Part shown: positions 14,999-43,266 of the stretch, piece after piece
Position numbering within the stretch: position 1 is the stretch's first letter
How the letters are laid out: each line of letters begins with the position of its first letter
NCBI GenBank assembly: GCA_002887195.1
Contig: PJAB01000099.1
Coordinates: 1-43,266, forward strand
DNA from: Chrysochromulina parva
Lineage: Eukaryota; Haptophyta; Prymnesiales; Chrysochromulinaceae
DNA: 43,266 nucleotides
Direction of reading: 5' to 3'
Notes under the pieces: generated by a model
Seen by the model: the letters and a program-made list of their open reading frames with translations, nothing else
What the model was told of the DNA's origin: nothing
The model's database searches: none
Made by a program: the position numbers and the translations under genes

Positions 14999-15709
14999 AA
15001 CAGGCCGCGCGACTTCGACACTTGTGGGGCTAGAGCACCGAAGCCTCGCCTCTCCCGTCACATGATGCAGCCCGCGACAATGATGCGTTCGAGGATCAAG
15101 GCTTCGCCAACGGCCACCCGAACGCGGATACGGTTGAACCCGCAGCGTGCGTACAGCGATGACATTCGGTCGATCCGGTGGGAGAGGTACTTAGGGGTGG
15201 TGTGACGTGTGAGGCTCACCCCTTAACTTACATCGCATATTACTCGATACTCGCCTCGTTCTCTCACGTCATGTCGATACTGAAATCCACTGTGCGCAGC
15301 CGCGCACGCACCATTGGCACGCACTGTCTACTCGCGTCTACTCGGTCGTACCGAAGGCGAATTTCCTGTAGCAGAAAGCCCCACGTCCTAGCACATTCCA
15401 CATTGAATTCAATGACGTCAAGCCAGGTAAACCAATTTTTTTGAATTTTACCAACATGCGGCCTGTACATGTACATGTACACGTCGCTACGAACGCCAAG
15501 AACAATTGCGTTGCATGCACCGACGGCATTGGGACGTTTCGACTTTCACAGTCCACGCGGCCTGACGCAAGTTGAAGAACTGGTTGAAGGGTCGTCTGTT
15601 CCCGCGAGGTCGCGTGTGTGGCTGCAGTCGCCGTGCGTGCGACGAGTGCCACTCCTTTGCTCGTGCGTGGGGCGCTGCAATCTTGTGGCACGGACACGGA
15701 ACGGCACGG
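14999..15709. other. 3' UTR of the selenoprotein gene and upstream region of the SFI1-like gene
   Basis: About 710 bases. Apart from the SECIS candidate it contains TGTACATGTACATGTACA at 15464-15481, a perfect 18-bp palindrome 229 bases upstream of the ATG at 15710. The middle (15230-15460) is AT-richer, as expected for a promoter. The frame of the next gene is open from 15572, but without ATG before 15710. Confidence 0.45.
15070..15135 (+). promoter_or_regulatory. candidate SECIS element in the peroxiredoxin 3' UTR
   Basis: ATGA at 15080-15083 is followed by GCGTTCG, which pairs perfectly with CGAACGC at 15119-15125, and then GGAT (15126-15129) supplies the 3' GA of the kink-turn quartet. 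An AA pair lies in the loop at 15098-15099, where eukaryotic SECIS elements carry unpaired A residues. It starts about 80 bases after the stop codon. The lower helix is not convincing, and the minus strand of the same stretch can be read as a short acetyltransferase-like tail, so this remains a candidate. Confidence 0.35.
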
Positions 15710-18394
15710 ATGGACACTGTTGAACCCATCGAAGGAGCTGAGTCCTCGCATGATCCGGCTGCGGATGCCGCCTCCATTAAAGAGTGGCGCGCGAAGCTGC
15801 AGGTGGTCTTTGACAGTGCGGCTGCGGCGTTGCCCAGCAATCAGCGGCCGATGATTGCGAGGGTCTCAGAGCAGGTGCTTGCAGTCGTTGAGGCGTTGCA
15901 AACAACTGAACTCGCTCGGAACCACAAGGCGATGGAGAGCCTGCGCTTCCGGGTCCAGTGGGAGAAAGAACAGGCCAAAAAGCAGCTGGGCTCGCTCCGC
16001 AGTGCCTCGACGATGGAGGGGCAGCACCTGATCACGCGGGTGACGATGCAGCTCGAGGCGGAGCACAAGAACACACTTGAGCAGATGGAACAGAAAGCGG
16101 CAGAGGTGACGAAGCGGTACGAGGCGCAGATAGGCGCCCAGGCCGAGGTGCAGCAGGTGCTCCTCATGAAGATCACGCTCCTCGACGGCGGCGCCACCGC
16201 GGCCAGCCTTGAGCACGAGCGTCAGGTGAGCTTTATGGCAGCGAGCGCGATGCGCCGGCTGCAACACGTTGCGCTCAGCCGCGGCTGGCTCACGTGGGTC
16301 GAGGGGGCGGCCGAGCAGCGCAAGATGCACGGTGCGCTGAGGCGGATGCGAGATTACGCGGTGAATCTCGCCTTCCACGCGTGGGTCGAGCTATGTGAGC
16401 AGCGTGAGTCGCAGCGGCAGCTGATGGAGCAGGCGGCAAGACGGCTGCTGCGGCCCGCGCTCACGTCTGCGTTCACGCACTGGCTCGAAGAGTGGAAGGA
16501 GGCGCAGAGGCGGGTAACGAGGGACGGGCTGCTCATGCGCATCGAGGAACTTGAAAGCCAGATCATGCGTGAGCGCATCGAGAGTGCGCGCCGACTCGAT
16601 GCGGCAGTGGCCGAGCAGCAGAGGCTGCTGCACACGATGACGCTCGGGCAGTCGGAGACCATGCGCCTCGAGGCGCTCGCGCGTGCTGACCTCGTCGAGT
16701 ATCTTAACCACTCCACCACCCGCCGCCGGCTACAGCAAGCACGCATGCGTAGCTGGGGCGCTTGGAAGGAATTTCGACAAGCCCGCGCCACGCAGCGGCG
16801 GCGGCTCAGCCAGTTTGTGAGTCGGTGGCTCAAGCGTCAGCTGGTGCGCGGATGGGCGGAGTGGCACGTGTGGGCTCGCATGCATATAAGCGAGCGGAGG
16901 TGCATGGGCGCGGTCGTCGGCCGCCTCGCCAACAAGCACCTCTCTCGAGGTTGGACTGGCTGGCACTCGTGCTGGGAAGAGGGCACTGCGCATCGGCGCA
17001 TGATGCGCGGTGCCTTGAGCCATCACACCAAGAAGCAGCTCACGGGCTGCTGGGGCTCCTGGCATGTGCTCCGGCATGAAGCCGCGAGGCAGCGTCAGCT
17101 TCTCGCCGTCGCTGCCAGCCGGCTGCGCAACCCGAGCCTCGCGGGCGCCTACGGCGTCTGGCGGCACGAGTGGCGGAGGGCATTGATGGCGGAGCACGCG
17201 AACACCTTAGAGGAGCGTGCCCGGCTCTTCGGCCCAAAAGGGGACGAGGATGGAGAGATCCAGCTGAGCGAGACGACGTCAGCTCCGCTCGAGCTCGCGG
17301 AGCGCAAGTTATCTCCGCTCGAGCTTGCGGAGCGCAAGGTGGATGAGTTAAGTCGCGCACTGCAAGAGATGGAGAGATGGAGAGATGAAGAGAGGGGCGC
17401 GCGCGAGCTGGCGAAGGCGGAGGCTCAGATGGCGACAGAGATGCTCGTCGAGCTCGACGGCCTGCGAAATGAGTCCTCCCGCTGGCACGCAGAGCGCGAG
17501 GCTTTGCAGGCGAAGCTCGACGAGACCGTACGCCAGCTGACGCGCGAGATCGAGCACGCGCGTGCCGAGTACGAGCGGCGCGGGCGCGACCTCGCCGCAG
17601 CTAAGCTGCACGCCGAGCTAGCCGCCGATGTCGAGAAGGAGGCGAAGGAGACGCTCGAGAAGGCCCTCGAGGCCGTCGCACGCGCGGACGAAGTACGAGA
17701 GACCGAGAAGAGGCAGCTCACGCGCCGGATGTACGAACAGATGGAGGGCCTGCTCGCCGAGCGCATGGATGCTGTCGCGGTCAACCACGAACACCGCATC
17801 CGGGAGCTGACCAACCTCCTCGCGCTGCGCGATCGGCAGCTGATGCGAGCTGTCGCGGGCGCGACTTCCGGAAATCTCGGCCTCTCGAGATCAAGCCCGG
17901 CGATGCCGCCGTTCATGGCCCCAGCATACGCGGCGGCTGCCACACCTGGCACGGCGCTACACAAGAGCGCGTCCGAGAGCGCGTCGCCCAAACCTCTCGT
18001 GCGCGGCTCGGGTGACAAGCGCTCCCTTGACTTCCGACCTGTGAACGCACCTGTGGACTACCTCCGGATGAAGCGGCCGGCCACTGCCGCGTACACGACG
18101 AATGCCTCGCGTCGTGGGCGGGGGCAGGCCGCGGGCATGGCGCTCAGTACCTCGAGCGCTGGGCTGCTCGTCACCGCGACGCTGCCCGAGGCGGTTGGCT
18201 GGGCGGGGCAGATGGCCAGAGTTGACGCGCAGCCGCTCGGGCTCACGATCGCGCTGCCTATCGTGCCCACGAGGGACATCACAACCCCTCATCTCTACCA
18301 TACGATGACAGCTCCCGGCGGGAGCATGATGGGTGCAAAGTCCGCACCTTCTTGGACGAGCCCCTTTAGCAGACGATGCGGGAGTCAGGCGTGA
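15710..18394 (+). CDS. SFI1-like centrin-binding repeat and coiled-coil protein
   Basis: 894 residues from ATG 15710. The N-terminal 170 residues are helical and charged. From about residue 170 to 500 there is a series of repeats with paired tryptophans and a basic residue: ALSRGWLTWVEG, NLAFHAWVELCEQ, ALTSAFTHWLEEWKE, ARMRSWGAWKEF, QLVRGWAEWHVWAR, HLSRGWTGWHSCWEE, QLTGCWGSWHVLRHE, SLAGAYGVWRHEW. This matches the SFI1 pattern (L/F-x-x-W-x-x-W/F-x-x-x) that binds centrin in centrosomes and basal bodies. A long coiled coil follows (about 530-740, for example ELSRALQEMERWRDEE). The C-terminal 150 residues are Ser/Pro/Ala-rich and disordered. The likely site is the basal body or a centrin fibre. 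A short duplication PLELAERK occurs twice near 17283-17338. Confidence 0.8.
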   Translation: MDTVEPIEGAESSHDPAADAASIKEWRAKLQVVFDSAAAALPSNQRPMIARVSEQVLAVVEALQTTELARNHKAMESLRFRVQWEKEQAKKQLGSLRSASTMEGQHLITRVTMQLEAEHKNTLEQMEQKAAEVTKRYEAQIGAQAEVQQVLLMKITLLDGGATAASLEHERQVSFMAASAMRRLQHVALSRGWLTWVEGAAEQRKMHGALRRMRDYAVNLAFHAWVELCEQRESQRQLMEQAARRLLRPALTSAFTHWLEEWKEAQRRVTRDGLLMRIEELESQIMRERIESARRLDAAVAEQQRLLHTMTLGQSETMRLEALARADLVEYLNHSTTRRRLQQARMRSWGAWKEFRQARATQRRRLSQFVSRWLKRQLVRGWAEWHVWARMHISERRCMGAVVGRLANKHLSRGWTGWHSCWEEGTAHRRMMRGALSHHTKKQLTGCWGSWHVLRHEAARQRQLLAVAASRLRNPSLAGAYGVWRHEWRRALMAEHANTLEERARLFGPKGDEDGEIQLSETTSAPLELAERKLSPLELAERKVDELSRALQEMERWRDEERGARELAKAEAQMATEMLVELDGLRNESSRWHAEREALQAKLDETVRQLTREIEHARAEYERRGRDLAAAKLHAELAADVEKEAKETLEKALEAVARADEVRETEKRQLTRRMYEQMEGLLAERMDAVAVNHEHRIRELTNLLALRDRQLMRAVAGATSGNLGLSRSSPAMPPFMAPAYAAAATPGTALHKSASESASPKPLVRGSGDKRSLDFRPVNAPVDYLRMKRPATAAYTTNASRRGRGQAAGMALSTSSAGLLVTATLPEAVGWAGQMARVDAQPLGLTIALPIVPTRDITTPHLYHTMTAPGGSMMGAKSAPSWTSPFSRRCGSQA

Positions 18395-18613
18395 CGAACG
18401 TACGAAAACGGTGTCTGGTATTTTCTGGCTAAATCACATAACTTTAACTACCTAGGGGGTCTTGGGCGTTGTCTATGTGTGTCATGTTTGTCATGTTTGT
18501 CATGCTCATCAACCCCCCCTGGCCGTCGTAACACAACGTTCACAGTACAGGACATCCATTTCACAGGTCGGCGGCATATCCGGAATCATGTGTGGTGGTG
18601 CCAGCTCACATAC

Positions 18614-20161
18614 ATGTTGGCTCGCCGTGTGCCGGCGTTCGCGACTCGCGTGCTGACGGCTGCACGCGCTCGCACATTATCAACCGCCATCGTCGATCCG
18701 ACCGACTACGAGCCGGCCGCCGGACACACTCACGACCCGTGGGCGCCGCCTGAGCTGAAGGCGCGCTCCAACGACGTCGACCTGAAGGCCGTGTCGGCTG
18801 CGCACTGGGAGGACAAATGGGACGCGGCGAAGATCCGCGCGGCATCGGCCGCGCACGTCGGTGCCACCTGGACGCCGTCCAACGTCTTGGACGACGTGCC
18901 CATCCTCGTCAAGGGCGAGGGCGTCTTCCTGCATGCGGCCGATGGCCGCAAGTTTATCGACTGGACGTCGCAGGCCGTCTGCACGAACCTCGGTTACGAC
19001 GTGCCGCCGGCCGTCATTGAGGCGGTCACGCGCCAGCTCACCGAGCTGCCGCACGTTTACAGCGGCCTGGGCATGGTCGAGCCACGCGCGCGGCTCGCGG
19101 CCCTGCTGGCGGAGCTGCTGCCGGCACCGCTCACGGGCCTGATCTTCCCTTCGAGCGGCTCCGAGGCGAACGAGGCGGCAATCCGCATCGCGCGGCGGTT
19201 CACGGGCAAGCACAAGATCCTCACACAGTACCGCTCGTACCACGGCGGCTCCGGCGCGTCGCTCGCGGCCACTGGCGACTTCCGCCGCTGGTATGCTGAG
19301 GCAGGCAACAGCGGCTTCATCAAGGCCATCAATCCGACGCCGCTCATGTTCTCGTGGTCGGAGGCGGGCGACGCGGCCGAGACGGACGGGGCGCATCGGG
19401 CGCTCGCCGCACTCGAAGAACAGATTCTCCTCGAAGGGCCTCAGACGATCGCCGCTGTGCTCCTCGAGTCGATAGTGGGCTCCGGTGGCACCTTCATCGC
19501 TCCCGAGGCGTACATGCGCGGAGTGCGCGCGCTGTGCGACAAGTACGGCATCCTGTACATCGCGGACGAGGTGATGGTCGGCTTTGGGCGCACGGGCAAG
19601 ATGTGGGGCTTCCAGCACTACGAGGGACTGGTGCCCGACATAGTGACCTCTGCTAAGGGCCTCACGGCCGCTTACCTCCCGCTTTCGATGGTCGCGATGA
19701 GCGCGGAGCTGCATGAGTTCTTCCGCACGCGGCCCGTGGGCTGGGGCTCCACGTACCAGGCGCACCCCGTCGCGCTCGCATGCGCGTACGAGTGCGTCAA
19801 GCACCTGCTCAAACACGACCTCGTGGGGAACGCAGCGCGCCTCGAGCCGGTCATGCGGGAGTGCACCGACCATCTCGTGGCCTCTCACCCGTCGGTGCGT
19901 CAGGGCCGTGTCAAAGGGCTCTTCGGCTGCCTCGACCTGCAGGGCGTCGACGGCAAGTACATGCAGCCGCTCTCCGGCCCGCCGCACGCGGCGGTCAAGC
20001 CGTTCAGGCGCGCGCTGCTCGACGAGGGCGTGTATGGGCTCGTGCGCCCGCCGCTGTTGCACTCGGCGCCACCGCTCGTCATCGATGAGCCAACGCTGCG
20101 CGACGGCTTCGCGCGCGTCGACCGCGCGCTCAGCGTGCTCGACAAGGAGCTCGGGTTCTGA
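18614..20161 (+). CDS. mitochondrial class III (omega) aminotransferase
   Basis: 515 residues from ATG 18614. The start MLARRVPAFATRVLTAARAR is a typical mitochondrial presequence: basic, no acidic residue. The PLP fold type I features are intact: FPSSGSEANEAAIRIARR (phosphate binding), YRSYHGGSGAS, IADEVMVGFGRTGKMWG with Asp 318 contacting the PLP ring nitrogen, and TSAKGLTAAYLPLSMV with the Schiff-base Lys 348. GWGSTYQAHPVALACA is the usual following motif. The family includes alanine-glyoxylate (AGT2), beta-alanine and 4-aminobutyrate transaminases; the amino donor cannot be fixed. Length is normal for the family plus leader. The open frame extends upstream from ATG 18614 to 18479 in repetitive sequence and is not used. 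The next gene begins less than 160 bases after its stop. Confidence 0.92.
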   Translation: MLARRVPAFATRVLTAARARTLSTAIVDPTDYEPAAGHTHDPWAPPELKARSNDVDLKAVSAAHWEDKWDAAKIRAASAAHVGATWTPSNVLDDVPILVKGEGVFLHAADGRKFIDWTSQAVCTNLGYDVPPAVIEAVTRQLTELPHVYSGLGMVEPRARLAALLAELLPAPLTGLIFPSSGSEANEAAIRIARRFTGKHKILTQYRSYHGGSGASLAATGDFRRWYAEAGNSGFIKAINPTPLMFSWSEAGDAAETDGAHRALAALEEQILLEGPQTIAAVLLESIVGSGGTFIAPEAYMRGVRALCDKYGILYIADEVMVGFGRTGKMWGFQHYEGLVPDIVTSAKGLTAAYLPLSMVAMSAELHEFFRTRPVGWGSTYQAHPVALACAYECVKHLLKHDLVGNAARLEPVMRECTDHLVASHPSVRQGRVKGLFGCLDLQGVDGKYMQPLSGPPHAAVKPFRRALLDEGVYGLVRPPLLHSAPPLVIDEPTLRDGFARVDRALSVLDKELGF

Positions 20162-20236
20162 GCCAACATGCCGCGAGGATGTTGTGTAGAGGAGGTGCGG
20201 CTGATTGGCTTCGTCGATGCGGGGCCTCGCCGAACC

Positions 20237-22600
20237 ATGTTCTCGTGTATAGCTGTGAGATTGCAATCTATTCACAGCGCCCTCCGTTCACGCGGCGACC
20301 TGGGCCACGGCCTGTGGATGGCGCACAAGACCGACCGCGCAGCCGCCACCTCGACCGTAACCGCCTTCGCGGCTGCCGAGAGCGAAGCAGGCGACTGCTC
20401 CGACGTCGCGATCCTCCTCAGCCGACTGCAAGCGCGCGGCCCGCTGAAACGCGCGTACGCTTTGTTGCGCGAGTCGCTCCCCGATGAGCTCTTGGGGCTC
20501 GGCGCTAGCCGAGTGCACGCGCTCGTGCTCAGTGCGTTGCAGTCACTGCTCGACGGGCCAGCACGAGAGGACAAAGAGGCGTGGCCTGGCTCGGGAGCTG
20601 CCGCCTATTGCTCGCTGCTGCTCGACGCGGCCTCCAAGTTGCACGCCAACGGCTCCGCAGCAGTGCTGCCTTCGCACCGTGAGCAGGCCGTCACGCTGTG
20701 CGCGCGGCACCCGCGCTTCGTGCGCAAGCTCCTTGCTGTCTACGGAGGAGGTGAGGACGACCGAGCGCCGGCGCTGCTTGCGGCACAGACGTTGTGGGCA
20801 CGCGGTGACGGCGCGGAGGTAGCACAGCTCACCGCGTCCTTCGCGCTGCACGCCCACTTTGACGTGCGCGCTTTGCTCCGCTCCGCCCTAGACAGCACTC
20901 AGCCGCAGGCCGCCACGGCTCTTGCGAGTGCTTCGCCGGAGCATGCTCTGATGCTGCTCGAGGAGCTGTGCGAGCGCGGCGACGCGCGCCAGGCGCTGCG
21001 CGCCCTGCCCAAGCTCAACCTTACGCGTCGCACACTGCCGTTGACCACGCGCCGTCTGCTCCGTCGGGGCGTGCTCTCGCCTCGCCGCCGCTGGCTCGCG
21101 CGCTCGAGGCTGTGGGATCTCATCGACGCCTTCTACGCGGCGGCCGCGGCAGGCGTCGCCGAGGCCAGCCGCGCGCAGGACGAGGAGGATGCGGCGCTCG
21201 ACACGGCGCTCGACACGGCGCTCGACAGCGCGGCGCAGGTGGAGCGGCTCGTGCTGCGGACGGTGCTGCCGGCATGTGATTGGGTGGCGCTGGCCGCGGG
21301 CCTGAGCCTCGAGCTTGCAAAGGAAGGGCTGCGCACCGTCGCCGTCCACGGCTGCTTACGTCATCAGATTGAGAGCGCACTGCCTCCCAAATTAGGGCCA
21401 ATTACGGCAGCAGAGCGCGCAGAGGCGAGGGCCTTGACGGAGGAACAGGTGGCCACTGGCGCCCCCTACGTGGCACTGGCGCCCGCACGCGACGGTGCCC
21501 GCGGCGGCGCGCCTCCGAGCTACTTTGGCCAACGGCTCGATCTCGCGCGGGTGATCGTGATCTCGGACGCCGCCGGAATGCGCTCCATGTGCGCCGCCGT
21601 GCTGGCCGGCGCTGTGCCGGGCGCTGTGCCGGACGCAGTGGGGTCGCACGCCGGCGCCGGCGCGTCGCTCGTGCGAGCCGGCGAGACGACCGCCGCCAGT
21701 GGCGGCCGAGCGGCAGGTGGCGCGAGCGACGCACTGGCTGTCTCTCGAGGCGTGCTCGGCATCGACATCGAATGGTTTGACGGCGAGGGCGGCTCGGGCG
21801 AGGGTGGCATGGTGCAGTGGGTGCAGCTCGCAGATGGGATGCGCATCTACCTGCTCGACGTGCCCGCGCTGCTGGGCACGGACGCCTCGCGCGTGGCCTT
21901 TGCGGAGGGCTGGAGAGCTCTCATGAGCTGCCAAGGCCTGCTCAAGCTGGGCCTCGGGCTCAAGCAAGACCTGAGAAAGCTACGCAAGGCGCACGCAGTA
22001 CTCGCGGCAGCTGGCGCCGACGAGCTTGAGCCGGCCGTTGAATTGGGTGCGCTCTGGAGCAAGCGGCGGGCTGCCAAGGCGAAGGTGGGCGGCGGTGGCG
22101 GCGGTGGCCGCGGTCGTGGCGGTGGCGGCGGTGGCGGCGATGGCGGCGATGGCGGCGACGGCGACAGCGATGGCGGCGGCGACGGCGGCGGCGACGAAGG
22201 CCGCGACGACGGCGGTGGCGGGGCGGGGCGCAATAGTCCCGGCCTTTCCGCGCTGGTGCAGGAGACCTTCGGGAGCCCCCTCGACAAGTCGATGTGCCTT
22301 TCCAACTGGACACGTCGGCCGCTCACCCTCTCCCAGCTGCGCTACGCCGCTCTCGACGCCGAGTGTCTGGTGACCCTGTTTGCACACTGGGAGCGCCAAC
22401 GTATTCTCGAGGGGACGCCGCCGCTTCTGCCCGCCTACCTGCCTCCTGCCCGCATGCGTGGCGTCACTTGCTGCGTCGTGTCGCTACAGGTCGTTGCTTC
22501 GGCGGCGGTGCGCATCGAGCTTGCAGTTGGTGCCAGCTTCGCGGCGCGCATGCTGCCTTTGCTGGGCGCTGCCTCCTTGAGCGACTGCGCTTGTGGTTGA
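20237..22600 (+). CDS. DEDDy 3'-5' exonuclease, EXD3/mut-7-like
   Basis: 787 residues from ATG 20237 (ATG 20318 is also possible). The N-terminal 480 residues are helical and Leu/Ala-rich, as in the helical N-terminal region of EXD3/mut-7 proteins. The exonuclease domain starts at RGVLGIDIEWFDGE with the first catalytic Asp and Glu (510 and 512), continues with MVQWVQLADGMRIYLLDV and LLKLGLGLKQDLRKLRKA with the second Asp, and ends LSQLRYAALDAECLVTLF, the Y-x-x-x-D of the DEDDy class. Such enzymes trim RNA or DNA 3' ends; mut-7 acts in small-RNA pathways. A glycine/aspartate run of about 50 residues (22087-22230) is inserted between the second and third motifs. The last 50 residues are atypical and may hide an unrecognised 3' intron. 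Only 75 bases separate it from the aminotransferase. Confidence 0.75.
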   Translation: MFSCIAVRLQSIHSALRSRGDLGHGLWMAHKTDRAAATSTVTAFAAAESEAGDCSDVAILLSRLQARGPLKRAYALLRESLPDELLGLGASRVHALVLSALQSLLDGPAREDKEAWPGSGAAAYCSLLLDAASKLHANGSAAVLPSHREQAVTLCARHPRFVRKLLAVYGGGEDDRAPALLAAQTLWARGDGAEVAQLTASFALHAHFDVRALLRSALDSTQPQAATALASASPEHALMLLEELCERGDARQALRALPKLNLTRRTLPLTTRRLLRRGVLSPRRRWLARSRLWDLIDAFYAAAAAGVAEASRAQDEEDAALDTALDTALDSAAQVERLVLRTVLPACDWVALAAGLSLELAKEGLRTVAVHGCLRHQIESALPPKLGPITAAERAEARALTEEQVATGAPYVALAPARDGARGGAPPSYFGQRLDLARVIVISDAAGMRSMCAAVLAGAVPGAVPDAVGSHAGAGASLVRAGETTAASGGRAAGGASDALAVSRGVLGIDIEWFDGEGGSGEGGMVQWVQLADGMRIYLLDVPALLGTDASRVAFAEGWRALMSCQGLLKLGLGLKQDLRKLRKAHAVLAAAGADELEPAVELGALWSKRRAAKAKVGGGGGGGRGRGGGGGGGDGGDGGDGDSDGGGDGGGDEGRDDGGGGAGRNSPGLSALVQETFGSPLDKSMCLSNWTRRPLTLSQLRYAALDAECLVTLFAHWERQRILEGTPPLLPAYLPPARMRGVTCCVVSLQVVASAAVRIELAVGASFAARMLPLLGAASLSDCACG
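22087..22235 (+). repeat. GGC-rich polyglycine tract inside the exonuclease domain
   Basis: Repeated GGTGGCGGC/GATGGCGGC codons encode runs of Gly with interspersed Asp and Arg. It lies between the ExoII and ExoIII motifs, so it must loop out of the folded domain. Confidence 0.9.
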
Positions 22601-35068: not shown

Positions 35069-35820
35069 CGAAACCCTACCCCACAGCCCCCAACCCCACC
35101 GCCCCCCGGCGCTGGATCAGGACACTGCCAGGATGGGGTGAGACCAGCACGGTGGGACCAGGCGGGATGGCTGGGGGCGCACATAGCCCCAGGACTGATG
35201 CGGCTCTAACCTCTATAGCCGTGGTTTCCTTCCTCACAAATTTCGTGGGTCCGGGTTAGAAACGCGCAGCGCGACACGCCGAGAGAGCACACTCACATAA
35301 ACAGTACTGTTCTGTACCACTTCCACGTTGACGTTCCAGGCATGTGCTCGGCGTTGCGGTTGTTCACACATGAGCCTTGTGAGCGCTCACCGGCGCGCGG
35401 CGGAAATGTGACGGGCGCCGGTCGTGCTCTTGCCTAGCTCTTGCCGGTGTCGGTGGCCTCTGAGAGTCGCCGGCCGCGAGTGCCGTAGCCGACGCGAGGG
35501 TTGGCCGGGGGTCGGGGGGTCCCGCGGTAACGCGGTAACGCGGTAACGCGGTAGTAACGCGGTAGCTGCTTGCGCGCGCGCCGCGCCGGCGTCCGTGAAG
35601 TCGGACCGTTGCCGTCGTCGTTGATCTCGTCCGCGTGAGTGTGAAGCGCGTGTGTCTAGGCTCCCCCTGCGTTGTCTACCTGGTAAATAGGCATCGGGGG
35701 GAGCCGGGAACACACACGGGCGCTGTACCATTTTTGGTTGAACTACTATACCGGAACTGAAAAGGGGATCGCCGTTACACAATTTTTCCGCTCCCTGTGA
35801 GCAGCGCGGGCGTGTCGGCC
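35069..35820. promoter_or_regulatory. intergenic region upstream of the TPR gene
   Basis: About 750 bases. AACAGTACTGTT (35300-35311) is a perfect 12-bp palindrome with a GTAC core like those upstream of other genes here. CGCGGTAA is repeated in tandem at 35523-35565. Around 35735-35785 the sequence is AT-richer, fitting a transcription start. No gene is seen. Confidence 0.45.
35523..35565 (+). repeat. 8-bp tandem repeat (CGCGGTAA, about five units)
   Basis: Four to five near-identical copies of CGCGGTAA, with one unit lengthened by three bases. Noncoding, upstream of the TPR gene. Confidence 0.9.
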
Positions 35821-38800
35821 ATGACCTCGTCAGAAGACGACCGGCTGCTCGATGCTGTCGACATCACCGAGCTGCTCGATGCTAGTGTGACAGAGCACTG
35901 GATGGCTGTGAAAGAGGTTCAAAAGTACCTTGACGAGGCCGGCGACAAAGCCATCCGTCAAATGCACCGAAACTGTGCCACGTTGAGCACGTTCTGGGAC
36001 CACTCGCTCGCGTACCAAAATGGAATGACCATGACACTCTGCCAGTTCTGGCGCATCGCCGCCATTGTAGGCTTGACACAGCTTGCCACCCTTGCGGAGC
36101 TCTCTCGTGATGTCAACCCTGTGCCCACAGGCCGCAAAAAGCCAGCGCCGCCGCCTCTGCGTAAGCTGAGTGTTGCGGACCTCGCGCTTGGCTTGGCGAA
36201 GATTGCGTCCACGCGCACGACGTGCGTGCAGGTGGCCGTCCAATATGGCAGAGATCGCATGTTTACCGGGATTCCTGTAAACTCACTCGCGGAGCGACTC
36301 GCTGTGCTTGTCGGAGCAATCAATAAAGAGGTTGGCCGTCTCATCGATGCCGGCGAGCCATTGGACGTGCCTGGGCAGCTCTACTCTGACTCTACGGGGT
36401 TCCGTGCCACGGAGCTCTTTAGAAAGAAGTATGCCCGTGGCGTGAAGCGCGTGTTGGCTGCCATGTGCGACGACGCCGGCACTGCGCCGCTCTTTGCTGT
36501 CCGCAAGATCCTGCTCATCGTGGAATCTTTGAGTCCAAACCTCTCCTCGAAACGAGTCATCGGCACGGCTGCAATCGCTGCTCAAGCATTGGCCACCGCC
36601 GCACCTCGGCCTCCCGCAAAATGCGAGGTCCTTGAGCTCATGTGTCTCGGCAATCAAGTGTCCGCTTTCTCCTCAGCGAGCCGTATGCGCGTCACCGCGG
36701 ATGAGGTCCTCGAGGCGTTTGCTCGGTTTGCGTGCGGTGCTCGACCAGACGTGGACAGGGTGGCTGCCATAGAGGGTGTGTGGAGGCCCTTTTTGTCGAG
36801 CGAACCGAGTGCAGCACTCGCCCAAGATACGCTCCTCTCCTTTTTGCAGCCAGCGGCGGGGACATCAAGTGACCTGCGGCTTCTACTGCGCAATTCGTTC
36901 CTCCATTATGCATCCTTTGGATGGCACAACGACGCATCAAGTGTGGCACAGATGGAGATGCGCCACGCCTCCTGGCGTGCAATTAAGACGCAGCTCGGCC
37001 TACAGAGTGGCATCGACTCGATAGACGATGCAGCTTTCTACGCTTGCGCTGTCGGAGGAGTGACCTCTCTTGCAGATGATGCCAAGGATACGCCCGCCGT
37101 GCTCGAGGAGCACGGCTTGCTGTCTGCACTCAGAATGCTTGGTGCTCGCTCGGTGCTTGCGAGCAAGCTTGATGAGTTCACCGACGACATTCACGAAACT
37201 TCGAAGCCTTCTATTGCGAGCGGAACCGCCGCATCACCACCTCCTCCAGCTCCACCGTCCCCGATCAAGTCGGGAACCCAAACGCAGGGCATGAGGTCGC
37301 CCTCTCCGCCTGCAGAGGAAGAGGAGGAGGAGGTGACGGGTGGGGATGCCTCGGAGATCGCTCGGCTCGTCGACGAGGTAATCATGTCCCACTTGAGCGC
37401 ACTTACTTCTCGTCTCGGCCTCAAGACGGTGCGCTCCAATGCCCGGGACCGTATGCCATCAGTCGATGTATGCAATGTCGCCGCCATGATGCTGCAACAG
37501 CATCCGGAGTCGCTCAGTATCATCTTCCAAGCTTATGCTGAGCCACTCGCACCTCGAGAGGCCACTTACACTGGCAGTCTTGCAGCGGATGCCGACTTTT
37601 ATCCAGGCTTCGCTAGAGATGGCGATGCCCTTTCCAAACAAGATGTCACGTGGCAGCACGCGCTCGAGGCCGAGTTACGCGGAGTGGGGCCTCACGCGCT
37701 CAAAAATCTCATCGTGGATTTTGCGCTCGCCGAGTCGCTCCGTTGCGATGCAGCTACGGCCTCGCAATTTGCTTCACAGATGGGTGGGCGGCCCCTCTCG
37801 TTGGTTCAATTAATTGCTGTGCTACTTCGAATGGCGCAACACGGAGCGAAAGCCATAATGACACGCCAAAGCTTCGAGGAGGATGGGGTCCCCTCCGTCA
37901 AGGAGAGCGGCAACTGGACTGGGCTATACTCGCCATCGACTCCCTCAACGTCCCACACCTCCACAGCAATGGAGGTGGACCAGTCCGACAACGAGTCCGA
38001 GGTCTCAAGTAAGGGTATCGGGGGTGAACTTGGCCACAGCGCCGAGCGCACAGCGAGCTTTCTTGAGTCTGCTATCGTCAATCGGCCTGCCCACATCGCA
38101 CTGGACCAGGTTCTCGTGCACGTGGTGACTAAGGTACTACTCCTCGAGCAACCAGTCTCCGTTCGCTGTCGGCTTCTCTGTATGGGTCGGCGGCTCAGCG
38201 CAGTTTCGGTGCTCCTCCCTCTCCCACCCCGGCCACTTCTTATGCCCTCTTCTGGCATGGAGGGCTTGCGTCTTTCGCAAGAGCAGTTAGCGCGTCGCCT
38301 ACACGCTCTCATCGCCCTGGCCGACCTAGACGACGTTCGGTTGTGGGGTCCGGCTGTATCCGCCGCGGCCCAAGCAACTCCTCCCATGGGCGGGGACGGA
38401 GACGTCTCCAGCAGGCCGTCAAGTGCGCCGACGACGTCGAACTACGCTGCCACAGCATCCAGGTCCATTATCAATGTTTCCGCGGCTCGAATGTCGGCTA
38501 CGCCATCGCCCCTGACTGCTGTGATGGCGCCATACTACACGCCATCACTGCCGGCACGACGCCCTCGAGCGCTTCTCAGGACTACCGTTGCTCTATCTGC
38601 TTCCGCGTCCGACATGCCCGTGTCGCAAGCGCCCATGTTAAATGCCTCTGAGGCAGCGGGTACTCCTGGCTATCCCTCGTTGCTGCGGCCTCCATCTTGG
38701 CGAAGCCCCCCGACTGGGTATGCCAACGTGGCCGGCATGTCAGTCACCACAAGCGTTCCCAGCGGGGTTGCGGGCAACGTTTTCACCGCCACCATCGCGC

Positions 38801-39681
38801 GAACGCTCACCAACACCGACGCGGCCACGTCAGTGCCGGTTGAGGCTACGCGTCTCTTATTTCAGAAGCTCGAGGCTCCTCCTCTGCCTGCAGAGGTTGC
38901 AAGGCTTGTGCACGAGGCGTCGCTCTACTCTGCAGACGGCGATTTGGGCCGGGCTCTCGCTGCCCTGCACTGTGCTCGAGTCCTCTTGCTTAAGTCATCC
39001 CCTCAGTACGGACAGCTCTCAAAGTCGTCCTCAATGGCTTCCATCAGCACTTCCACACTACCAGACTTTGAGCCACCGTACTACCCTCCAAGGGTGGCCA
39101 TTTTCTTCGAGCTTTCGATGGCGAGAGCATGCTCTGCGTGTAGGCAACTTGCCCGCGCCCTCCACCACGCAGGTTCTGCATTCTTCATTGCGATTCTGCT
39201 GGAACCAGGCGACGTTCTCTGTCATGCTGAGATTGCATGCTGCCTGGGCTCGATCTGCTGCGAGCTTCGGCGATATGCGGTGGCGGGTGCTCTCTTCGCC
39301 CGTGCGCTTGAAGGCCGAGCGAGTCATGGATGCCCGGCACTGCTACTCGCCGAAGCACTCAACAACCTCGCGGTCTGCACCTCAGCGACGGGTGATATCC
39401 CCACGGCAGTGCAGCTCTACCGTGATTGCCACAAGCTAATGATACTCGAGGTGCAACCAGGTCACGAGTCAGTAGCTCGAGTTCTACATAATCTGAGCCG
39501 ACAGCTCAGGATGTCTGGGGCTTCCTTGACCAATCGGCCACCAGTTAACCTTCGTGGCCCCTTGCTAGCGCCACCAGTCCTCGCATTCCAATTGCCGAGG
39601 CCTCCACCCGGAAAGAAAGGCAAAAAGGGTGGCAAGAAGGGCGGAGGAAAGAAAGGCAAAGGCGGGAAGAAGAAGAAGTAG
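35821..39681 (+). CDS. large TPR-repeat protein with Lys/Gly tail, possibly flagellar
   Basis: 1286 residues from ATG 35821; no intron is needed. The N-terminal 450 residues are helical with paired segments (CQFWRIAAIVGLTQLATLAE, LSVADLALGLAKIASTRTTC, RVTADEVLEAFARFACGARP) that resemble degenerate EF-hand-like or helical modules seen in protist axonemal proteins. The middle is Ser/Thr/Pro-rich with an acidic run (EEEEEEVTGGD). Residues from about 1040 form TPR helices: SLYSADGDLGRALAALHCAR, RQLARALHHAGSAFFIAILL, RRYAVAGALFARALEGRA, ALNNLAVCTSATGDIPTAVQ. The end is GKKGKKGGKKGGGKKGKGG, a tail common on algal axonemal or RNA-binding proteins. I do not recognise the family; a scaffold role is likely, flagellar location is a guess. 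Confidence 0.75.
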   Translation: MTSSEDDRLLDAVDITELLDASVTEHWMAVKEVQKYLDEAGDKAIRQMHRNCATLSTFWDHSLAYQNGMTMTLCQFWRIAAIVGLTQLATLAELSRDVNPVPTGRKKPAPPPLRKLSVADLALGLAKIASTRTTCVQVAVQYGRDRMFTGIPVNSLAERLAVLVGAINKEVGRLIDAGEPLDVPGQLYSDSTGFRATELFRKKYARGVKRVLAAMCDDAGTAPLFAVRKILLIVESLSPNLSSKRVIGTAAIAAQALATAAPRPPAKCEVLELMCLGNQVSAFSSASRMRVTADEVLEAFARFACGARPDVDRVAAIEGVWRPFLSSEPSAALAQDTLLSFLQPAAGTSSDLRLLLRNSFLHYASFGWHNDASSVAQMEMRHASWRAIKTQLGLQSGIDSIDDAAFYACAVGGVTSLADDAKDTPAVLEEHGLLSALRMLGARSVLASKLDEFTDDIHETSKPSIASGTAASPPPPAPPSPIKSGTQTQGMRSPSPPAEEEEEEVTGGDASEIARLVDEVIMSHLSALTSRLGLKTVRSNARDRMPSVDVCNVAAMMLQQHPESLSIIFQAYAEPLAPREATYTGSLAADADFYPGFARDGDALSKQDVTWQHALEAELRGVGPHALKNLIVDFALAESLRCDAATASQFASQMGGRPLSLVQLIAVLLRMAQHGAKAIMTRQSFEEDGVPSVKESGNWTGLYSPSTPSTSHTSTAMEVDQSDNESEVSSKGIGGELGHSAERTASFLESAIVNRPAHIALDQVLVHVVTKVLLLEQPVSVRCRLLCMGRRLSAVSVLLPLPPRPLLMPSSGMEGLRLSQEQLARRLHALIALADLDDVRLWGPAVSAAAQATPPMGGDGDVSSRPSSAPTTSNYAATASRSIINVSAARMSATPSPLTAVMAPYYTPSLPARRPRALLRTTVALSASASDMPVSQAPMLNASEAAGTPGYPSLLRPPSWRSPPTGYANVAGMSVTTSVPSGVAGNVFTATIARTLTNTDAATSVPVEATRLLFQKLEAPPLPAEVARLVHEASLYSADGDLGRALAALHCARVLLLKSSPQYGQLSKSSSMASISTSTLPDFEPPYYPPRVAIFFELSMARACSACRQLARALHHAGSAFFIAILLEPGDVLCHAEIACCLGSICCELRRYAVAGALFARALEGRASHGCPALLLAEALNNLAVCTSATGDIPTAVQLYRDCHKLMILEVQPGHESVARVLHNLSRQLRMSGASLTNRPPVNLRGPLLAPPVLAFQLPRPPPGKKGKKGGKKGGGKKGKGGKKKK

Positions 39682-39864: not shown

Positions 39865-42426
39865 CTACGCAAGGTACAAAATGACGCAACTCGCATTATC
39901 TGTCCCGCCACTCCCTTCAGCGCGGGCCACCACCATCTCCGCCACCTCGCCCGCACTCGGTGCCGGCGAGCGTGAGGTCGCCCGTGCCTCTGCAACCAAG
40001 CAGGCCACGCGCTCGGCGCCCTCGCTGGCGCCACCGACGCCATCAAACGGCCCCCACACGCCGTCGGAACCGAGCAAGATAAAGGCGTGGCGTGAGTCGA
40101 GCCGCAGCGTGGTCACATCGGCTGTGTCGCAAATACCGGCGTCGGCCCACTGCGAGCCACCAAGGGCACGGGGCACAGCGACCAGCCAGTTGCCCTCCGG
40201 ACAGTCCACGGCGACGCGCATCACGCCTCCGCGGCCGCATGCCACGTCGCCGCCGCCCTCTCGAATACGCTCGATCTCGGCTTCGTCACTCGCGCTATGG
40301 TCCTTGGTCGCAAAGGCCACTGTGCATGGAGCGCCATCAGGCGTCGCGTGCGCAGCTAGCAGGGCTCGCGAGTCGCCAACGTTGAGAAATTGGCAGCGCC
40401 CGTCATCCGAGGCGAGCACCACCGTCGCGGTGCTGCCGTCCTGATGTCCCGTGCGTCGATAGCTCTCACATGTAGCGCGCCAGGCGACTGCGAGGGGAGA
40501 TGGCTCACCGCGGCTCAGTGCTTCTTTGACAGCGGCGGGCAGCGTGGCGGCGGCGTGCGCGGAAGCCCGCGGCCCTCGATGGCCGTCAAAGACGCCGGCG
40601 AGCGTGAAGCGTGTGGAAGAAGCGGAGCCCGGAGGCGTCACCTCGAGCGTCGTCAGTATCGTGGTGTCCTCCTGTGTCGAACGGCCGCCGATGATGGAGG
40701 CGGCACCCGCGGCCACGACAATGGGCGACGCAGCGGTACCCGTGGCCGCAGGCGAGCGGTCGGGGGCCGAGGCGCCGCCAGATGCAAGCATGCTCTCGAG
40801 CGTCTCCACCGCTTCCGTGGGCAAAGGGCACTCGTCCCCCGTCTCGACGCCGCAGTCCCTCTCGAACGTGAGAAGGACTACATCCTTGCCGCCGCGGCTG
40901 CGCGCGCTTATGAGGGCGCTGATTTGCTCGACGGAGGCACGACGCACCGGCGTGTGCTCGATGCGTACGAGACGATCGCCTATGCGGAGCGCCTCACGCG
41001 CCGCGGCAGAGGCGAGCCCGTCCACGAAGCCGTCGAGCGTCACTCCACCCGCGCGCAGCTCGCCAAGGAGAAGGCCGAGCGGAGGCTGCAGGCGCACGCT
41101 CAGAGCGATCGGGTGCTCCTCGACCGCCCAAGCTGGCAACACACACCCGTCGGGTTCGAACCCCTCGAGCTGTACATTGAGTGCGCTGGGCGAGAAGAAG
41201 AGCTTCGCCTCCTTGCCAGAGGCGGACGCCCCGGAGTTGGTGGCGCCGCCGGCCGCGTTGCCCGACAGGCACGGATGGGTCAGAAGTGCGTCGATCGACG
41301 GCCGGCGTGCCGCCTCCGAGACCAGCATGGCCCGAAGCATAGCCAGCAAGCTCGCGTCGCCTGCGGGCAGCGCGTCGAGCGAGGCGCTTAGCAGAGGATC
41401 GAGTGCGGTCTCGCCCAGCCCGATGCGCAGCCATGCGTCGAGGTCGTGCCCAGATCGCTCGAGCTGCTCACGAAACCGCGTCAGCCCCAAGGCACCCTTG
41501 GTGTCGTCGACAGCGCTCCCTGCGCCCAACACCGCACCATCGGTGGGTGCGCGCAGCAGCGGCCAACACAGCTTCAGGAGCGTGATGGCGATCGAGTAGA
41601 CGTCGAAGGCCCACGGGTGCAACGGGTCCACAAATTTCTCAGGCGCCGCGTACTCCGGCGTGCAAGGCGAGCGGCTCGCGTCGTACCCCAAGCATGCGCT
41701 TGCCCGTTCGAGCGCAGGGCAGCCCTCGAGTTGCGCGCAGGAGCCCATGTCGATCAGGCGCAGTGAGGTGCCATCCACGAGCACGTTCTCGGGTTTGATG
41801 TCACGGTGAACGAAGCCGATCTCGTGCAGAGCGCTCGCGGCCTCGAGCAGCTGACGCAGCACATCGCGCGGCGTGAGCCCGGTCGCTGCCTGCAGGCCCT
41901 TCGCGTCACCTCCAAAATCGGCGAGCGACCGAGCTACGCCGTCCGGTCTGCCCACGCGCTGCCAGAGCAGCCAGCGCTCGCCATCGCGCTCCACCTCCCC
42001 GAGGTACTTGGCGAAGAGGGCACCGTACCGGTCGGGGGGCACCTCCGCTGCGAGGCGCGTGTTGACCACGGCCTCCACCTCGAGGTACGTGACGGCCTGC
42101 GCATCGGCACCCTCGTGGCTGGCACGCGCTTCCGCTCTCTTGGCGACCGCATCGATCACAGCGTCTCCGACGATGGCGCTGGCGGCATGCACAGTCCCAT
42201 ATTGGCCGTAAGCGAGCTGCGCACCGATCGTAGCACGCAGAGATGTGATGCGTGGAGCAACGGACATCGCGACGTTCCCACGAGGAGCAAATGCCGTACC
42301 AATCGTAGCACGCACGTGTGGCGCTAGTCGTTGCGAAACGGACAGCGCGATGTTCCCACGGGGTACCACAGAAAGGCCGTGCGCCACGCCGCTCAGAAAG
42401 AGCACGAGGGCCGTGAGATGCATCAT
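39865..42426 (-). CDS. STN7/STN8-like protein kinase - PDZ - PP2C phosphatase fusion, probably plastid-targeted
   Basis: 853 residues from the ATG pair at 42426/42423 (a further ATG is at 42498). MHLTALVLFLSGVAHG is a signal peptide; the next 50 residues lack acidic residues and fit the transit part of a bipartite plastid leader. Kinase: LAYGQYGTVHAA loop, Lys 96, HRDIKPENVLVDG (207-219), DMG in place of DFG (226-228), YAAPE (259-263). WLLWQRVG, FDVYSIAITLLKLCWPLL and FREQLERSGHDLDAWLRI match thylakoid STN7/STN8 kinases. PDZ: about 442-524 (PPLGLLLGELRAGGVTLDGF, LRIGDRLVRIEH). PP2C: about 576-853 with GRSTQED, GVFDGHRG, DGSTATVV, NVGDSRALL, VPRALGGSQ, LLGSDGVWG and GTDNASC, all metal ligands present. 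It would both add and remove phosphates, perhaps on light-harvesting proteins. Confidence 0.88.
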   Translation of the reverse strand: MMHLTALVLFLSGVAHGLSVVPRGNIALSVSQRLAPHVRATIGTAFAPRGNVAMSVAPRITSLRATIGAQLAYGQYGTVHAASAIVGDAVIDAVAKRAEARASHEGADAQAVTYLEVEAVVNTRLAAEVPPDRYGALFAKYLGEVERDGERWLLWQRVGRPDGVARSLADFGGDAKGLQAATGLTPRDVLRQLLEAASALHEIGFVHRDIKPENVLVDGTSLRLIDMGSCAQLEGCPALERASACLGYDASRSPCTPEYAAPEKFVDPLHPWAFDVYSIAITLLKLCWPLLRAPTDGAVLGAGSAVDDTKGALGLTRFREQLERSGHDLDAWLRIGLGETALDPLLSASLDALPAGDASLLAMLRAMLVSEAARRPSIDALLTHPCLSGNAAGGATNSGASASGKEAKLFFSPSALNVQLEGFEPDGCVLPAWAVEEHPIALSVRLQPPLGLLLGELRAGGVTLDGFVDGLASAAAREALRIGDRLVRIEHTPVRRASVEQISALISARSRGGKDVVLLTFERDCGVETGDECPLPTEAVETLESMLASGGASAPDRSPAATGTAASPIVVAAGAASIIGGRSTQEDTTILTTLEVTPPGSASSTRFTLAGVFDGHRGPRASAHAAATLPAAVKEALSRGEPSPLAVAWRATCESYRRTGHQDGSTATVVLASDDGRCQFLNVGDSRALLAAHATPDGAPCTVAFATKDHSASDEAEIERIREGGGDVACGRGGVMRVAVDCPEGNWLVAVPRALGGSQWADAGICDTADVTTLRLDSRHAFILLGSDGVWGPFDGVGGASEGAERVACLVAEARATSRSPAPSAGEVAEMVVARAEGSGGTDNASCVILYLA
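42223..42363 (-). repeat. duplicated leader segment in the kinase-phosphatase gene
   Basis: The transit-type leader contains PRGNIALSVSQRL...RATIG and, 26 residues on, PRGNVAMSVAPRI...RATIG. The matching DNA is also similar, so the leader grew by a tandem duplication of about 78 bp. Confidence 0.8.
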
Positions 42427-43266
42427 CGCGATGAAAAAATGACTTGACGTGTTTGACGAAACTATGTTTGCGGTGCCAACTTCCCGCGAGATTTTCATCT
42501 TGATGACGCTGAAACTTGGGCGAGCCGGGCGAGCTCTTAGGCGAGCTCAGGATGCAGACCCACAGCAGCAAGAGACTTCACTGGTGAGGAGGCTGTCGCC
42601 TTGGCCCTCAGCGAGGGTAGTCGACGGGGGTGTAACGGCGACGGGGGTGCTCTCGCGTCAGCGGGGCAACTTGATTACAATCGTTTAGTACGCGTTAGTA
42701 GCGAGACTATGCACAACTATGCAGGGTGCCAATCGACAGATCTCGGAACGTAGACCCCCAAACCGCGGAAATTCGGCTTGCATCAGTTAAGCAAAGGCCG
42801 CGAACACCTCGTGAATTTGCAATTTCTTTCACACCTTGGCAATCTCGTTTCTTCGTCATGGAAAGCGCGCATTCGTCTTCTCCCCCCTCCTCCGACCCCG
42901 ATGTCTCCGTCGCCACCGCCTCCAGTACCGCCACCTCCTTCTCCGCCACCTCTTGTCCCTCCCATGCCCACGTTGTCAAGATCAGCCCTCCTCCCCAGAC
43001 CTAGCTAAAGGAGCACGTGTCTGGTACCACCAGCTTGGTGAGTGGCTCGATCGGCATATGTCAACGCATGGAATGCGGTATGCGGAGACGGTTCGCCTCC
43101 AGCCTGTGGCGAGTGGGAAGGGCTGTGGACGAGGTGACTGTCCGTTGCCAACAGGTAGCTCTGCAGCAGCCTCGTGACTGTGGGGCCATGCAGCCCCCAC
43201 AGGGCTTGTCCGGTATCATGCACTGGCTTGAGCGTGACCCATAATTCATCTTGGAGACGCACGACA
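42427..43266. other. right-edge region, gene content unresolved
   Basis: About 840 bases. 42427-42560 is the 5' flank of the fusion gene. ATG 42859 opens a 48-codon Ser/Pro-rich frame (MESAHSSSPPSSDPDV), and a pyrimidine tract ending CCCCAG at about 43000 could be an acceptor for DLAKGARVWYHQLGEWLD. The minus strand has an equally open frame entering from the right edge (ELWVTLKPVHDTGQALWG) and stopping at 43005. I cannot choose between them. Confidence 0.3.

Follow-up and report, generated by a model that had tools for sequence, protein, structure and literature searches.

The closest described counterparts of the gene reported here are the kinase STN7, which phosphorylates LHC proteins when plastoquinone becomes reduced, and TAP38/PPH1 (PP2C 57), a separate phosphatase that opposes it. 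STN7 possesses a membrane helix, a lumenal C-x4-C cysteine pair and a stromal C-x3-C pair, as described in an excerpt of PMC11808413. A passage of PMC12141491 describes state transitions as debatable for algae with complex plastids and cites a study of the haptophyte Phaeocystis antarctica. The window analyzed here is a 43,266-nucleotide stretch of Chrysochromulina parva DNA (contig PJAB01000099.1, assembly GCA_002887195.1), and its minus strand contains, at 39865..42426, a whole coding frame for a protein of 853 amino acids plus stop codon, designated P0001. As read from its sequence, this is one conserved polypeptide that runs from an STN-superfamily kinase through a PDZ domain to a PP2C phosphatase, with the usual catalytic residues. 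The source is a photosynthetic haptophyte, 58 rows of its own genome matching chlorophyll-binding antenna proteins. On the likeliest reading, whose chances we judge to be evenly balanced, P0001 is a bifunctional enzyme of the haptophyte plastid, docked by its PDZ domain and acting as both writer (kinase) and eraser (PP2C) of phosphates.

The kinase domain occupies residues 65-392 (41251..42234, minus strand) and includes K96, D209 of the HRD motif, D226 of DMG, E263 of APE and D275 of FDVYS; Pfam Pkinase matched residues 187-386 with 62.3 bits (cut-off 31.7). The WLLW, F-D-V-Y-S-I and F-R-E-Q-L-x-x-x-x-x-D-L-x-A-W features listed in an earlier note on this DNA were all located (WLLW, FDVYSI and FREQLERSGHDLDAW), together with DMG. 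When the C. parva genome (2199 contigs totalling 45.07 Mb, possibly incomplete as assembled) was searched with Arabidopsis STN7, the fusion locus was the best of 59 matches. In a kinase tree built without STN8, Chlamydomonas, red-algal and diatom STN rows, the fusion kinases grouped with STN7/Stt7 in a 13-row clade (support 100/100) apart from 35 other kinases of the same genome and eight presumed bacterial kinases. This is the placement with the STN clade that the note had anticipated, and approximately unbiased (AU) tests agreed with it. With five rows left out, a 12-row STN-side clade was again supported at 100/100. Within the clade, the fusion rows were placed beside a subclade of STN7 and Micromonas Stt7 (the five STN7/Stt7 rows, 97/85; fusion rows plus two further C. 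parva kinases, C421 and C536, 86/64), and both groups were weaker in the reduced tree (59/43 and 80/55, respectively). FDxYS and F-x3-L-x5-DL-x-AW are both found in P0001, and the alpha-H regular expression matched 10 of the 13 STN-side rows and none of the 43 others, the STN motif expressions having been composed after the family had been inspected. The two further kinases (C421:15281-15823 and C536:9258-9773) are stand-alone STN-superfamily members of DFG type, and no PDZ or PP2C was seen downstream of either on inspection by eye of three-frame translations within the loci retrieved.

The earlier note had called this kinase STN7/STN8-type, of which the kinship stands, since it joins STN7/Stt7 apart from the 43 other kinases, but the type does not. 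By hydropathy no membrane helix was found in the protein, no 19-residue window past the signal-like start averaging above 1.54 (Kyte-Doolittle). It has neither a C-x4-C nor a C-x3-C pair, both of which were found in STN7 (P0034, at 65 and 187), and in the alignment it is without the insertion that STN7 and the Micromonas kinase MsStt7d (4ix3) have in common between APE and FDxYS. The kinase is therefore classed, from alignment and motifs, as an STN-superfamily relative of STN7/STN8 and not as one of them. The DMG motif (residues 226-228; 41743..41751, minus strand, by motif reading) had been suspected of weakening activity. The five close kinases of the fusion clade included in the tree all carry DMG; C421, C536 and family member P0010 carry DFG, and all five STN7/Stt7 rows DLG. 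Of the 35 other C. parva kinases, DMG occurs in two and DWG in one. As DMG is fixed in the fusion clade and DLG occurs both in STN7 and in Micromonas Stt7, the motif gives no ground for assuming a loss of activity, and the suspicion found no support. Four cysteines of the activation segment are invariant in P0001 and its relatives P0004, P0007 and P0008. Overall cysteine conservation is unexceptional (9/16 cysteines invariant, against 346/711 residues in all), and any redox idea must therefore draw on those four cysteines.

The PDZ domain corresponds to residues 437-530 (40837..41118, minus strand), with the carboxylate-binding loop PPLGLLLGE at 448-456. In the window protein Pfam PDZ (14.7 bits) and PDZ_6 (15.1 bits) both scored under their cut-offs. 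Nevertheless, at E up to 1, PF00595 matched each of the six PDZ pieces taken from family members, that of P0007 with 32.6 bits and over the cut-off. A profile of these pieces matched 237 sequences of the PDB (E up to 1; best E 9.6e-9), the 60 listed being PDZ proteins by name or, for a few such as YlbL, presumably proteins holding a PDZ. In PDZ proteins this loop holds the C-terminal carboxylate of the ligand, and here PPLGLLLxE is invariant across 10/10 aligned proteins. Residues 441-520 were modelled with pLDDT block means of 72-86, and their strands and helices succeed one another as in a PDZ domain. The assignment, which the earlier note had also made, is thus regarded as secure on sequence grounds despite the low scores in the window protein.

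The PP2C domain extends over residues 567-853 (39868..40728, minus strand) and contains E586/D587, D614-G615, D663, GDSR, D788 and D843-N844. Pfam PP2C matched residues 602-791 with 73 bits (cut-off 20.3), and the metal ligands (ED, DGH, SDG, DN) are conserved. A PP2C phosphatase in the same polypeptide as kinase and PDZ, as had been proposed, is thus borne out by this match, these ligands and the single stop-free frame. An origin of this domain from TAP38 was considered and found no support in sequence rank, TAP38 being 20th of 21 PDB matches with 20.3 bits. In a 15-row PP2C tree most forks were unresolved and no link to TAP38 was visible; one row had an end branch of 8.8. The PP2C regions of P0007 and P0008 contain an unalignable Ala/Arg-rich insert of approximately 70 residues resembling an unspliced intron that has been read through. 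AlphaFold models were weak (mean pLDDT 50.9 from 10 sequences for P0001 and 55.9 from nine sequences for P0005), though the kinase and PP2C folds were still recognizable by Foldseek and a second alignment; in each structure search the match list was filled by the catalytic domain.

The order kinase-PDZ-PP2C is repeated in P0004, P0007 and P0008, all from other contigs, P0008 being without leader and start. Best local alignments to the window protein gave identities of 72% for P0004 (covering 100% of the query), 47% for P0007 (28%) and 46% for P0008 (77%); the corresponding multiple-alignment identities were 78%, 50% and 51%. Identity for kinase, PDZ and PP2C was 78, 78 and 86% in P0004 and 56, 51 and 53% in P0007, with lower values in the linkers. 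The kinase residues K96, D209, N214, D226, E263 and D275 and the PP2C residues E586, D587, D614, D663, D788, D843 and N844 are invariant in all four proteins. Among 10 aligned proteins Pfam, at E up to 0.1, detected Pkinase in nine, PDZ in eight and PP2C in seven. P0006 and P0009 consist of kinase and PDZ and end early, and P0010 (34% identity) has kinase and PDZ with no PP2C within its 520 residues. P0005, a metagenome protein of 498 amino acids, shares 95% identity with the window protein across 52% of the latter's length and has PDZ and PP2C without a kinase, behind a different signal-peptide-like leader. Neither a P0005-like copy nor a second fusion was found in the possibly incomplete C. 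parva assembly, no other of 35 rows reaching both kinase and PP2C.

A profile search gave 16 matches among 7994 candidates scored and no family member past P0002-P0010, the other seven being kinases by Pfam, so that absence elsewhere is a soft result. The first protein search, of 7994 word-sharing candidates, returned no plant STN7 among its 32 matches, and 21 pattern matches in viral contigs included no relative. In GTDB contigs, probed with patterns that were both kinase motifs and hence not for PDZ or PP2C, the best 80 of at least 476 relatives all matched within residues 34-382 (leader and kinase part). Neither P0001 nor P0007 reached the cut-off of any NCBIfam family.

The coding sequence lies in a single stop-free frame on the minus strand (42546..39865; 893 codons stop to stop), giving 853 amino acids from the Met at 42426. 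An alternative in-frame ATG is located 24 codons upstream, reaching 42498, and the near-identical database entry P0002 begins there. Opposite-strand frames are also long, up to 378 codons, in keeping with a G+C content of approximately 69% in 40001-42000; frame length alone is therefore little proof, which comes instead from the relatives. The nearest named protein, Ctob_010043 of Chrysochromulina tobinii (P0003), has three residue differences from the window protein, gene-model differences aside. Its model starts 53 residues late and omits 63 in-frame residues, 640-702 (40321..40509, minus strand), which hold DGSTA and GDSR. These residues are found by alignment in P0004, P0005, P0007 and P0008; the stretch is thus probably coding and the intron annotated in Ctob_010043 probably false, the alternative being a phosphatase-off splice form.

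The N-terminus of the window protein begins with a signal-peptide-like stretch, residues 1-17 (MMHLTALVLFLSGVAHG; 42376..42426, minus strand), recognized by hydropathy and with cleavage after AHG as a guess; when the whole protein is scanned in 19-residue windows, the three with the highest hydrophobicity start at residues 2-4. An acid-free, transit-peptide-like leader follows at residues 18-64 (42235..42375, minus strand), recognized by composition. The first D/E does not occur before residue 88, for which the chance is 5.6e-6 given the acid content of the remaining protein. Acid-free starts are also present in P0004 (77 residues), P0005 (51) and P0006 (65). The leader coding region contains direct repeats (42220-42239/42295-42314 and 42251-42285/42329-42363, spacing 75-78 nt), and this diverged tandem duplication (42220-42363) is a single copy in P0004 by alignment. 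The signal peptide and acid-free leader described in the earlier note were thus recovered as a signal-peptide-like start and a leader whose composition and hydropathy would be compatible with the red-lineage pattern of a signal peptide followed by a transit peptide poor in acidic residues. Six antenna genes taken as a control for such starts were left out of the count, introns making the beginnings of their frames uncertain.

Plastid location, PDZ docking and a shared substrate are predicted features of the enzyme. Signal peptide and leader would carry the protein through the endoplasmic reticulum (ER) into the plastid, where the PDZ groove would dock on the C-terminus of a partner, for example a thylakoid scaffold or one of the antenna or photosystem proteins, standing in for a membrane anchor, which is present in STN7 but absent here. 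The docked kinase would phosphorylate the partner or its neighbours and PP2C would remove the same phosphates, such that the level of phosphorylation would depend on whatever favours one activity over the other. An extension that we consider unlikely is that one PDZ-docked thylakoid writer-eraser has functionally replaced the separate STN7/TAP38 pair in this haptophyte lineage, with the activation-segment cysteines as a possible thioredoxin switch between the activities.

A number of observations weigh against a plastid writer-and-eraser. Kinase and phosphatase activities need not be coupled, as P0005 has PDZ and PP2C without a kinase. With MsStt7d as query, the best match in the C. parva genome was C421 (59.5 bits) and the fusion locus was third (37.8 bits) of 28 rows; with P0001 alone as query, MsStt7d headed the PDB list only narrowly (38.1 versus 35 bits). 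The MsStt7d structure 4ix3 was not among the 50 kinases listed by Foldseek and came first only in a second look with VIA-align. In the PP2C domain WG stands where TAP38 has WD, and Asp663 lies opposite a Ser of TAP38. The acid-free start is short in P0007 (27 residues) and P0009 (25), and in P0002, whose start is longer, position 6 is acidic. Leu occupies the guessed +1 position, as against the Phe at +1 of the ASAFAP motif described for diatoms, cryptophytes and dinoflagellates in an excerpt of PMC4329603.

Of the alternatives, the most probable, though still unlikely, is a self-limiting kinase in which PP2C mainly strips the kinase's own activating phosphates, a built-in off-timer and not a substrate eraser. 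Activation-segment Ser/Thr is conserved (RSPC[T/S]P in P0001, P0004 and P0006-P0009) and tethering would raise local concentration, both consistent with such an arrangement; against it, the kinase-less P0005 indicates that the phosphatase has other targets there. Plant TAP38 is argued to act on light-harvesting complex II (LHCII) directly, not on STN7 (PMC2811158, in an excerpt), which by analogy slightly favours erasure from the substrate. That the enzyme carries an ordinary signal peptide and works outside the plastid stroma, in the ER/secretory route or the periplastid space, appears unlikely. The signal-peptide-like start is clear while the transit part is compositional only, and the +1 Leu noted above points the same way, but the kinship of the kinase with the STN superfamily and the long acid-free starts of four family members, one with an unrelated leader sequence, argue against this location. 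It is distinctly unlikely that one half is catalytically silent and acts as a binding module. Two PP2C-cNMP-kinase (PKG-type) proteins of Phytophthora infestans are called kinase-inactive in an excerpt of PMC3019232, P0001 and P0004 have Ala in place of the first Gly in the GxGxxG loop, WD is replaced by WG in PP2C, and GCCA takes the place of GSTA in P0007 and P0008; the listed catalytic residues from K96 to N844 are nevertheless invariant in the four fusions. A gene-model or assembly artefact fusing two genes is highly improbable, for although the public model Ctob_010043 differs in its later start and 63 absent residues, the frame is free of stops and the domain order is repeated on other contigs in P0002, P0004, P0007, P0008 and, minus those residues, P0003, with P0004, P0007 and P0008 coming from other assemblies.

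Elsewhere in the window, a convergent plus-strand neighbour at 35761-39681 comprises 1306 codons, matches TPR_12 (37.8 bits) and has a Lys/Gly-rich end, terminating 183 bases from the stop codon of the fusion. Three successive long frames in one reading frame are found at 15566-22600 (plus strand). The second has a Pfam match to a class-III aminotransferase and the third one to a piece of a 3'-5' exonuclease, so that the frames look like separate genes and were rejected as a single one.

Kinase-PP2C fusions as such are already known. Bacterial examples from Pseudomonas and Deinococcus similarly tether a kinase to PP2C, with PP2C N-terminal and kinases of bacterial type; PDZ is not mentioned in the excerpted text (PMC1262709). 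Oomycetes, which are not photosynthetic, also have kinase and PP2C in one protein. Five such proteins are described for Phytophthora sojae, where read mapping is said to back single transcripts (PMC10925823, in part), but these have CAP/cNMP domains. For P. infestans, an excerpt of PMC3019232 gives four PP2C-bearing kinases, of AGC, CAMK and OTHER types, and lists PDZ for one TKL kinase. Plant PP2C19/At2g20050 and rice PKG likewise combine a Ser/Thr kinase and PP2C in one chain, in the reverse order (PP2C, two cNMP domains, kinase) and with cNMP domains in place of PDZ; PP2C19 is at the plasma membrane. The kinase of PP2C19/PKG is of another type than STN, and no cNMP family was detected at E up to 1 in a Pfam scan of the window protein. 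Both activities are reported for rice PKG (PMC11775391, in part). Neither an STN-type kinase nor an intervening PDZ appears in any of the plant, oomycete and bacterial cases compared, as far as the excerpted sources describe them, and a literature search that left most subscription journals outside its reach brought up no description of a phosphatase fused to a kinase of the STN superfamily. Compared with STN7/Stt7 (Arabidopsis STN7 and Micromonas MsStt7d), the fusion kinase shares the clade, a non-Phe DxG and, with Arabidopsis STN7, the WLLW, FDxYS and F-x3-L-x5-DL-x-AW motifs; it differs in lacking the transmembrane helix, CxxxxC, CxxxC and the APE-FDxYS insertion and in adding PDZ and PP2C. 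Its phosphatase resembles TAP38/PPH1 in PP2C fold and metal ligands and would likewise counteract an STN-superfamily kinase, but unlike TAP38/PPH1 it is joined to that kinase. The best STN7 match of a haptophyte genome is thus fused to its would-be opponent enzyme in one concrete gene, testable by a single knockout.
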